A DNA stretch of 64,000 nucleotides from contig SZXX01000044.1 in assembly GCA_005843825.1 (NCBI GenBank), positions 62,001 to 126,000 of the forward strand, read 5' to 3'. Below, one piece after another: positions 60,482 through 63,849 of the stretch (position 1 is the stretch's first letter; each line of letters starts with the position of its first letter). Made by a program: the position numbers and the translations under genes. This stretch comes from Chlorobium sp. (GTDB lineage: Bacteria > Bacteroidota > Chlorobiia > Chlorobiales > Chlorobiaceae). The notes under the pieces are model-generated. The model worked only from the letters and a program-made list of their open reading frames with translations. It was not told the origin of the DNA and did not search any database.

Positions 60482-61549
60482 ATGGCATATAGAGCTATCT
60501 CAGGAATCGGTGAATTCGGACTGATCGACAAAATCGCTGCTCTGGCAGAACCAACCCTCCATACTGTCCAGAACCTGATAACAGGAATCGGGGATGACTG
60601 TGCTGTCTATCAGCCTTCCGCAGGGCTTTTGCAGGTAGCAACAACCGATATGCTTGTCGAGCAGGTACACTTCGATCTCTTGACAACACCCCTGAAACTG
60701 CTTGGAAGCAAATCGATCAGTGTCAATGTCTCTGATATCTGCGCCATGAATGCCCTCCCGCGCTACGCACTTATCTCGATTGCCGTCCCGGCATCCTTTT
60801 CAGTTGAAATGATTGAAGCACTTTACGAGGGGATGGCCTATGCTGCAACGGAATACGGGGTGGCTATCGCTGGAGGAGATACCTCTTCATCCCGTTCGGG
60901 ACTTGTCATTTCAGTCTCCATGATCGGTGAGGTTTCTGCTGAGCAGCTAACCCATCGAAGTGGCGCCAAACCTGGAGAACTTATCTGTGTTTCCGGCACT
61001 TTGGGCGGCTCCGCTGCAGGGCTCAAACTGCTGATGCGTGAAAAGGAGATCATGCTGGAACATATCGAAAACAATGAGCCCTATAATAAAAGTACAATGG
61101 CTGACCTTAAAGAGTACAGTAATGCCTTCCAAAACCATTTATCACCTATAGCACGCCTCGATATCGTAAGGTTATTACACTCGAAAAATATTCGTCCCTC
61201 TTCGATGATCGATATTTCCGACGGGCTCAGTTCAGACCTCCAGCATATCTGCCGCAGTTCAAATACCGGAGCCCTGGTTCACGAAGGCCGTATTCCTATC
61301 CATCCGGGCACTCGCCGCATTGCCGAAGAACTTCAGGATGATGCTCTTACCTGGGCTTTGACGGGTGGTGAAGACTATCAGCTGCTGTTTACGATTTCGA
61401 AAAAGGAGTATGAGGCAATTGCCGATAATAAGGATATAGCAGTCATCGGGGAAACAACCGATAAGGAAGAAGGGCTGCTCTTGAGCGATATTTATGGTAT
61501 GACCATTGATCTCAGAACAGTTAAGGGATTTGATCATTTCAGCTCCTGA
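60482..61549 (+). CDS. thiL: Thiamine-monophosphate kinase
   Basis: Phosphorylates thiamine monophosphate to the active diphosphate. From ATG 60482 the product is 355 residues. It opens ISGIGEFGLIDKIAAL and has ITGIGDDCAVYQP (metal/ATP site), TTDMLVEQVHFDLLTTP, LLGSKSISVNVSDICAMNALPRYALI, VAIAGGDTSSSRSGLVISVSMIG, SSMIDISDGLSSDLQHICRSS and WALTGGEDYQLLFTI. The frame runs upstream to 60194, but that part is the reverse of ftsY. Its 3' end is 102 bases before the tRNA gene. Confidence 0.95.
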   Translation: MAYRAISGIGEFGLIDKIAALAEPTLHTVQNLITGIGDDCAVYQPSAGLLQVATTDMLVEQVHFDLLTTPLKLLGSKSISVNVSDICAMNALPRYALISIAVPASFSVEMIEALYEGMAYAATEYGVAIAGGDTSSSRSGLVISVSMIGEVSAEQLTHRSGAKPGELICVSGTLGGSAAGLKLLMREKEIMLEHIENNEPYNKSTMADLKEYSNAFQNHLSPIARLDIVRLLHSKNIRPSSMIDISDGLSSDLQHICRSSNTGALVHEGRIPIHPGTRRIAEELQDDALTWALTGGEDYQLLFTISKKEYEAIADNKDIAVIGETTDKEEGLLLSDIYGMTIDLRTVKGFDHFSS

Positions 61550-61651
61550 CCCTTTACATCATAGGGAAAAAAGGGTTGAGCAACTACCATTTATTTTTTG
61601 GGAAACACTTTGAAGATAGTAAATTGCTCGTCCTGTCTTATCTGATAGCAG

Positions 61652-61740
61652 GCCGAAGTGGCGGAACTGGTAGACGCCCAGGACTTAAAATCCTGTGTTC
61701 AGCAATGGACGTACGGGTTCGATTCCCGTCTTCGGCACCA
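61652..61740 (+). tRNA. tRNA-Leu(UAA)
   Basis: Acceptor arms GCCGAAG and CTTCGGC pair perfectly and are followed by encoded ACCA. The anticodon stem CAGGA/TCCTG encloses loop CTTAAAA, giving anticodon UAA for leucine UUA/UUG codons. A variable arm and the T arm with GGTTCGATTCC follow. The 89-base length fits a class II tRNA. It is not interrupted by an intron. Confidence 0.96.
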
Positions 61741-61803
61741 CTTCTTGTTTTCTCCTTTTCATTTTCCTTCGATATTGCTTTTTCGATCTTGGTTTTGTAA
61801 TGT

Positions 61804-61835
61804 TCATGTTAAAGCAATCTCTTGCTTTAACATGA
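61804..61835. repeat. Perfect 14-base inverted repeat downstream of tRNA-Leu
   Basis: TCATGTTAAAGCAA and TTGCTTTAACATGA are exact inverses around a four-base loop (TCTC). No T run follows in either direction, so it is not a standard terminator. It lies 64 bases past the tRNA and 33 bases before the broken DUF4160 gene. It might stop or stabilise the tRNA transcript, bind a regulator, or be the remnant of a mobile element. Confidence 0.65.
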
Positions 61836-61867
61836 CACCGTAGCCATTTCAACTATTAAAGTCTATT

Positions 61868-62137
61868 ATGCCTTCAATATCGATGTTTTACGGGATCATC
61901 ATTTACATGTACTTCAATGATAATAAACAATAGAAAAAGCCTCATATCCACGTTGTATATCAAGGAATGGAAGTGATTGTCGAAATCCCGAATGGTGAGG
62001 TACTTGAAGGTCATATTCCTCAATCAAAAATGAAACTTCTTCAAGCATGGGTTGAGTTGCACAAAGATGAACTTTGCGCGGATTGGGATCTTACAGTATC
62101 TGGCCAGCAACCTTATAAGATTGATCCACTGAGGTGA
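61868..62137 (+). pseudogene. DUF4160-family gene with one in-frame amber stop
   Basis: Reading from ATG 61868, the 89 codons encode a complete DUF4160-type protein except for TAG at 61931-61933 (codon 22). Before it is MPSISMFYGIIIYMYFNDNKQ, where M-x-x-x-S-M-F-x-G-I-x-I-x-M-Y-F is typical. After it come KKPHIHVVYQGMEVIVEIPNG, EVLEGHIPQSKMKLLQAWVELH and KDELCADWDLTVSGQQPYKI. The rest of the frame is undamaged, so the mutation looks recent or the stop may be read through. The DUF2442 gene starts three bases after its stop. Such DUF4160-DUF2442 pairs are common and look like toxin-antitoxin-type or mobile two-gene units. Confidence 0.85.
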
Positions 62138-62140
62138 GCT

Positions 62141-62383
62141 ATGAATCCACGTATTTTGGAAGTTATTCCAACCGATGACTACAAACTTAAGCTGCTTTTT
62201 ACTAATGGAGAGCGAGGGTTTTATGACTGCGCAGGATTGTTGAACTTTGGGGTATTCAAGGAACTGCAGGATAAAAATTATTTCAAAAAAGTACAGGTTT
62301 TACATGGAACGGTGGTCTGGCCCCATGAGCAAGATATATGCCCGGATACAGTGTATAGTGACGCAATAAAAGAAAACACCTGA
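62141..62383 (+). CDS. DUF2442-family protein
   Basis: The 80-residue product begins MNPRILEVIPTDDYKLKLLFTNGERGFYDCAGLL and continues GVFKELQDKNYFKKVQVLHGTVVWPHEQDICPDTVY. The ev-x-p-x-x-d-y-x-l-x-v-x-F-x-n-G-e start and the W-P-x-x-x-D-x-x-p-d/e end are the DUF2442 signature. Biochemical function is unknown; the partner gene just upstream is broken. The pair is flanked by housekeeping genes with no other sign of an island. Confidence 0.88.
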   Translation: MNPRILEVIPTDDYKLKLLFTNGERGFYDCAGLLNFGVFKELQDKNYFKKVQVLHGTVVWPHEQDICPDTVYSDAIKENT

Positions 62384-62478
62384 CAAGACACTTCGTTCTA
62401 AATTGACATATATAGTAATATCGCAACAATCTCCACTTTTTGACCTGCTTATTACAAGAACAACAAATCATCTCCATC

Positions 62479-63849
62479 ATGAGTTCTGAATTCACGAAGA
62501 TCCTGCTTACTGAAGACGAAATGCCCCGTCAATGGTACAACATTCAGGCTGATCTACCCACGCCGCTTCCACCGCCATTAGGTCCGGACGGTAATCCTGT
62601 CGGACCGGATGCCCTTGCAAAAGTTTTTCCGATGAACTTGATCGAGCAGGAAGTCAGTACTGAGCGGTGGATTGATATTCCTCAGGAGATACAGGCTATT
62701 CTGAAACTATGGCGACCTTCACCGCTGACCAGGGCAAAACGGCTTGAAGCTGCACTCCAAACTCCGGCAAAGATCTTCTACAAAAATGAAGGCGTCTCTC
62801 CGGCGGGAAGCCACAAACCCAATACTGCAGTTGCACAGGCTTGGTACAATAAGCAGTTCGGCATAAAACATCTTATTACTGAAACCGGTGCCGGCCAGTG
62901 GGGAAGCGCACTCGCCATGAGCTGCAAGCTTATCGGCATCGACTGTAAGGTCTTTATGGTGCGTATCAGCTTCGACCAGAAGCCGTTCCGCAAAATCATG
63001 ATGAAAACCTGGGGAGCCGACTGCATTGCAAGCCCAAGCGATCAAACCGCAATAGGACGCAGGATTCTCGCTGAAATGCCTGATACTCCGGGAAGTCTTG
63101 CCATAGCAATCAGTGAGGCTATTGAACAAGCCGTAGAGCGCGATGATACGCGTTATGCGCTCGGCAGCGTTTTGAACCATGTGATGCTGCACCAGACCAT
63201 TATCGGCCTTGAGGCTCGCAAACAACTTGAAAAAGTTGGCCTCTATCCGGATATCGTGATCGGTTGTGCCGGCGGAGGTTCAAACTTTGCGGGCATCAGT
63301 TTTCCTTTTATCTGTGATAAAATTCATGGCCGTGATGTTCAGATCATTGCAACAGAACCTGAAGCGTGCCCGACGCTCACCCGTGGCCCCTATATTTACG
63401 ATAACGGGGATGTTGCAAAAATGACCCCCTTGCTTCCAATGCACAGCCTTGGTCATGGTTTTATTCCGCCAGCCATTCATGCAGGAGGATTGCGCTATCA
63501 CGGCATGGCACCGCTTGTGAGCCATGTAAAGCAGCTCGGTCTGATTGATGCTACTGCTATTGGACAGACGGAGTGTTATGAGGCGGCACTGCTCTTCGCT
63601 CATACCGAAGGGTTCATCCCCGCACCGGAAACGTCACATGCTATTGCACAGACTATTCGTGAAGCAAAAAAGGCAAAAGAGGAAGGAAAAGAGAAGGTTA
63701 TTCTCATGAACTGGTCAGGCCATGGCCTGATGGATCTTCAGGGCTATGATGCCTTCCTTTCGGGGAAGCTCCATGATTACCCGCTGCCCGAAGAGCTCCT
63801 GCAGCACTCTCTTGCTGCAGTGAAAGACCATCCACTACCTCCGCAATAG
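62479..63849 (+). CDS. trpB2: Tryptophan synthase beta chain, TrpB2 type
   Basis: PLP enzyme that condenses indole with serine or O-phosphoserine. From ATG 62479 the product is 456 residues, longer than TrpB1. It has the TrpB2 N-terminal region ([21 protein letters not shown]), [27 protein letters not shown], the lysine in [49 protein letters not shown] (phosphate loop), the LSAGLDYPG-equivalent here as [12 protein letters not shown], and a C-terminal [13 protein letters not shown]. TrpB2 can work without TrpA. There is no trpA in the window. The gene ends 4 bases before a bidirectional terminator. Confidence 0.95.

Follow-up and report, generated by a model that had tools for sequence, protein, structure and literature searches.

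The DUF4160 and DUF2442 families are named in only a handful of papers, and in those we found the pair has been tested in only two organisms. In Dickeya dadantii, dhiTA is a type II toxin-antitoxin module: overexpression of DhiT, the DUF4160 protein, inhibits growth, co-expression of DhiA (DUF2442) relieves this inhibition, and the two genes are co-transcribed, toxin gene first, from a promoter that is repressed by the antitoxin and by the complex (PMC8198452). On a plasmid of Thermus thermophilus the same two families form a 'Persistence Enhancing Module', and here the plasmid can be introduced when it lacks the DUF4160 gene, but not when it lacks the DUF2442 gene (PMC12724237). Orphan antitoxins, for their part, are well known in other families, as a survey of Klebsiella illustrates (PMC7192599).

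In this work we describe a chromosomal pair of this kind from a draft genome of the green sulfur bacterium Chlorobium sp. (GCA_005843825.1; 2.55 Mb in 57 contigs). It lies in a stretch of 64,000 nucleotides of contig SZXX01000044.1 (positions 62,001 to 126,000), which was analysed whole and is hereafter called the window. The locus shares with DhiTA of D. dadantii 3937 both Pfam families, the unusual toxin-first order and the small gap or overlap between the genes (PMC8198452); it differs in the in-frame amber codon of its toxin gene, and in being known here from sequence alone. The Thermus module has the same pair in the same order, but it is plasmid-borne and intact, whereas the Chlorobium locus is chromosomal and broken (PMC12724237). 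The orphans of the Klebsiella survey likewise retain an antitoxin beside a degraded or lost toxin (PMC7192599); they belong, however, to different families, and what broke the Chlorobium gene is one stop codon, very young and absent from the intact orthologues that sister species carry. Very probably we are looking at a chromosomal DhiTA-type (DUF4160/DUF2442) type II module whose toxin was recently inactivated by an amber codon at position 22.

Results

The features of the locus, in window coordinates, are the following:

61652..61740, + strand: tRNA-Leu(TAA), the gene behind which the module lies (ARAGORN; Rfam tRNA, 59.9 bits)
61804..61835, no strand: perfect inverted repeat (arms of 14 bp, spacer of 4 nt) located 32 bp upstream of the toxin start (repeat search; fold z -5.8)
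61868..62137, + strand: putative DUF4160 (DhiT-type) toxin pseudogene, 89 codons, stop at codon 22 (translation, Pfam, intact orthologues)
61931..61933, + strand: in-frame TAG in place of a His codon (CAC in the related genomes G005, G052, G051, G038 and G042)
61967..62137, + strand: open remainder past the stop, with 56 codons counted from its first ATG; lacks His26, His28 and the first three predicted strands
62141..62383, + strand: intact DUF2442 (DhiA-type) putative antitoxin gene, 80 aa, starting 3 bp past the toxin's own stop (Pfam)

The frame at 61868-62137 (+) translates as MPSISMFYGIIIYMYFNDNKQ*KKPHIHVVYQGMEVIVEIPNGEVLEGHIPQSKMKLLQAWVELHKDELCADWDLTVSGQQPYKIDPLR, followed by TGA, which makes 89 residues with one internal stop. 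When codon 22 is read as X, the frame aligns with Pfam PF13711 over profile positions 1-64 of 65 (85 bits, E 4e-24), and this match is not due to chance, since the portion from codon 34 onward, past the stop, reaches 43.8 bits when scored alone. The full-length product is not encoded, because the TAG interrupts the frame, and the locus is a remnant of a DhiTA module rather than a working one. Both genes lie on the same strand with the toxin first, its stop at 62135-62137 and the antitoxin start at 62141; the DUF2442 frame is open and matches PF10387 (50.7 bits). An initial annotation, made from the letters of the window, had described a DUF4160 frame with a TAG at codon 22 as its sole in-frame interruption and an intact DUF2442 gene adjoining it, and both descriptions are right, coordinates included. 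It had also guessed, conditionally, at a toxin-antitoxin unit, and this agrees with the published experiments on DhiTA and on the Thermus module (PMC8198452, PMC12724237). On the strength of these experiments, and by analogy with them, we take the broken DUF4160 gene to be the toxin and the kept DUF2442 gene to be the antitoxin at this locus. As to which half can stay alone, a matter that the annotation had tied to the state of the second gene, it is the antitoxin that is retained here, as expected.

The residue replaced by the stop is His22, which at least 90% of the 48 aligned relatives share; His26, His28, Trp61 and Trp73 are invariant across them. Without His26, His28 and three of the predicted strands, the open remainder at 61967..62137 is unlikely to be a working toxin. 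The fold of the DUF4160 protein is predicted with confidence (pLDDT 91; model m43325c1f22ca, L069:3001-3267), but a search of solved structures gave nothing similar (best E 0.3) and sequence searches returned no solved relatives for either gene, so that no biochemical activity can be proposed for the toxin.

Upstream of the toxin gene, the inverted repeat may be a candidate operator for autoregulation or may form an RNA hairpin. No terminator-like T run was found at this repeat (61804-61835), and a promoter scan round the module gave scores no better than those of shuffled sequence. The spacer of the repeat reads GAGA in G005 and G038 and TCTC here, that is, inverted.

The module sits between the tRNA-Leu(TAA) gene and the next chromosomal gene. 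We compared it with Chlorobiaceae metagenome-assembled genomes, and the pair is found behind the same tRNA in G005, G052, G038, G042 and G017. In other species of the genus (for instance G016) the alignment covers the tRNA and resumes only near query position 880, with the module absent between, and in G051, which also has the pair, DUF4160 occurs a second time some 0.5 kb upstream. The comparison with close relatives, which had been proposed as a check in the initial annotation, gives a sense codon at position 22 in the sister species G005, G052 and G051. The Chlorobium toxin gene shows only four base differences from either G005 or G052. Against G052, two of these four fall in codon 22, and against G005, three of the four fall in codons 21-22; outside codon 22 and its neighbour, one or two bases differ from the sister orthologues in about 270. 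The change from CAC to TAG amounts to two substitutions, at codon positions 1 and 3, and would have come about either in two steps or in one multi-base event. Identity to G005 and G052 is 97-99% over the module and its surroundings (window 61500-62500) and drops to about 93% across the flanking 10-13 kb, a difference that suggests that the module segment has probably been exchanged or shared recently with the sister species. At this same locus G038 and G017 carry toxin breaks of their own, a stop plus a frameshift in the former and a frameshift around codon 27 in the latter, and these breaks are independent.

For a survey of modules we drew on the genus and on species-level genomes across many phyla, using profiles that read through stops and classing each gene. 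We obtained 226 distinct DUF4160 modules, with both genes intact in 173. A toxin with a stop or frameshift beside an intact antitoxin was scored by script in 29 modules, the window included (28 is the fairer count, as the last residues of the antitoxin are also shifted in L009, from G038), and the reverse situation in none. When partial or absent partners are included, there are 36 toxin breaks versus three in the reverse direction. With the two genes taken as 87 and 69 codons long, and relatedness ignored, a one-sided binomial test yields 4e-8 for 29 versus 0 and 7e-7 for 36 versus 3; the modules are related to one another, so that these counts are not fully independent events. In one of the toxins counted as broken, that of L325, a further stop falls close to where the profile ends and is perhaps a natural end. 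The survey was seeded from the toxin, and any resulting bias would favour intact toxins. As an independent check, family-wide Pfam searches of the same 65 genomes find internal stops in 13 DUF4160 versus two DUF2442 matches (about 150 rows each). The stops within broken DUF4160 genes are of all three types (12 TAA, 11 TGA and 8 TAG) and their positions are spread all along the gene, near its end included. Two related DUF4160 genes from different species, L029 and L166, have an amber codon at positions 41 and 32, respectively, which makes them independent breaks in one toxin lineage. DUF4160 relatives are also present on 28 plasmid records.

Discussion

The amber codon had been read in the initial annotation as the mark of a very young pseudogene, as a sequencing error, or as a case of read-through or re-initiation. 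The pseudogene is the best supported of these options, with near-identical intact orthologues in sister species and a gene that is otherwise undecayed. If the codon were instead an artefact of sequencing or assembly, the real gene would be intact and the toxin-antitoxin pair would work. The genome is indeed a draft in 57 contigs, the base call comes from the assembly, and a local mis-assembly could introduce two changes in one codon. However, two wrong bases within codon 22 between near-perfect flanks are atypical of random consensus error, which moreover predicts something other than the 29 to 0 asymmetry by which the breaks across the 226 modules hit the toxin and spare the antitoxin; we consider an error improbable. 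Even less probable, in our view, is that translation restarts past the TAG, at the ATG of codon 34 or the GTG of codon 36, and produces a shorter working protein. An AAGGA motif does precede this GTG by some six bases, but it derives from conserved Gln-Gly codons and is also present in the intact orthologues of G005 and G052. The restart product would besides begin beyond the invariant residues His26 and His28 and beyond predicted strands one to three, and in the other broken toxins the stops are distributed along the whole gene, its start being no preferred site.

Read-through of the amber codon, either programmed or by a suppressor such as a Cys-type tRNA(CUA), would give full-length toxin at a low or conditional level, an outcome to which we assign a very small chance. 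The same holds for its more elaborate form, in which the amber is a conditional switch and a little toxin is made because TAG is read weakly by an additional Cys-type tRNA whose anticodon loop is enlarged and carries CUA. A gene that could fill this role is called in the same genome:

G000:C2:20488-20562 (L261:189-264): Cys-type tRNA gene with a nominal CUA anticodon (CTA, ARAGORN)

A normal Cys-type tRNA(GCA) lies beside this extra copy, whose intact acceptor and T stems, together with the U at its discriminator position, favour a functional molecule. Its anticodon stem, on the contrary, pairs well if the loop is given 8 bases but shows mismatches if it is given 7. The counterparts of this copy in G005, G052 and G051 also have enlarged loops, in which the central bases are different, and in those of G005 and G052 the first acceptor pair is broken. 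The gene looks like a decaying duplicate. We rejected it as a dedicated amber suppressor, degenerate as it appears with its malformed anticodon arm. (The region is shared at about 98% with G033, a genome that has no copy of the window locus and is for this reason unusable as a close-strain control.) We also sampled 484 kb of the source genome, with 391 likely genes, 52 of them ending in TAG. In-frame openings of at least 100 codons past the stop are found after 5 of 52 TAG, 25 of 195 TAA and 5 of 144 TGA codons, and each of the four longest of those that follow TAG is an adjacent gene that has its own start codon close by. RF1 is present in the genome and TAG acts as a normal stop in this sample, both of which disfavour read-through, as do the sense codon of the sister species and the mixed stops of the broken DUF4160 genes. 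Genome-wide reassignment of TAG was rejected, RF1 being present and TAG extensions not in excess in the sampled 484 kb. For an amber-suppressed gene one would look for a sound suppressor tRNA and for a sign of genome-wide TAG decoding; the candidate tRNA is malformed, and the sample showed no such sign.

Our preferred explanation, a DhiTA-type module with a recently inactivated toxin, draws on a broken frame, intact orthologues, an intact antitoxin gene and one-sided breaks in relatives, all of which are observed. According to it, the module would have been inserted between the tRNA-Leu gene and the next gene, and the amber at codon 22 would later cut the toxin product to 21 residues, while the downstream antitoxin would retain its reading frame, now as an orphan. 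If the toxin were lost first, no harm would follow; if the antitoxin went first, the toxin would be left with nothing to neutralise it, and it is this difference that would allow the antitoxin to persist. We infer that toxin production has ceased and that nothing essential depends on the orphan antitoxin. Decay that starts with the toxin is the ordinary, harmless way for such pairs to go, and the locus is a new case of a known phenomenon.

The locus offers a clean snapshot of the first step in the death of a toxin-antitoxin pair, in which the toxin goes first and the antitoxin stays. A single case is of little consequence alone, and what modest value there is lies in the asymmetry across relatives. 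Extending over 226 modules from several phyla, this asymmetry gives independent support, of a purely sequence-based kind, to DUF4160 as the harmful half of the pair.

Decay of the antitoxin gene has not been seen so far, and its undecayed state may be compatible both with long-term neutrality of the orphan DUF2442 gene and with a role that has been kept. Elsewhere in the genome, a further DUF2442 gene (G000:C51:11822-12019) lies on a contig from which any DUF4160 match is absent, and is possibly an older orphan antitoxin.
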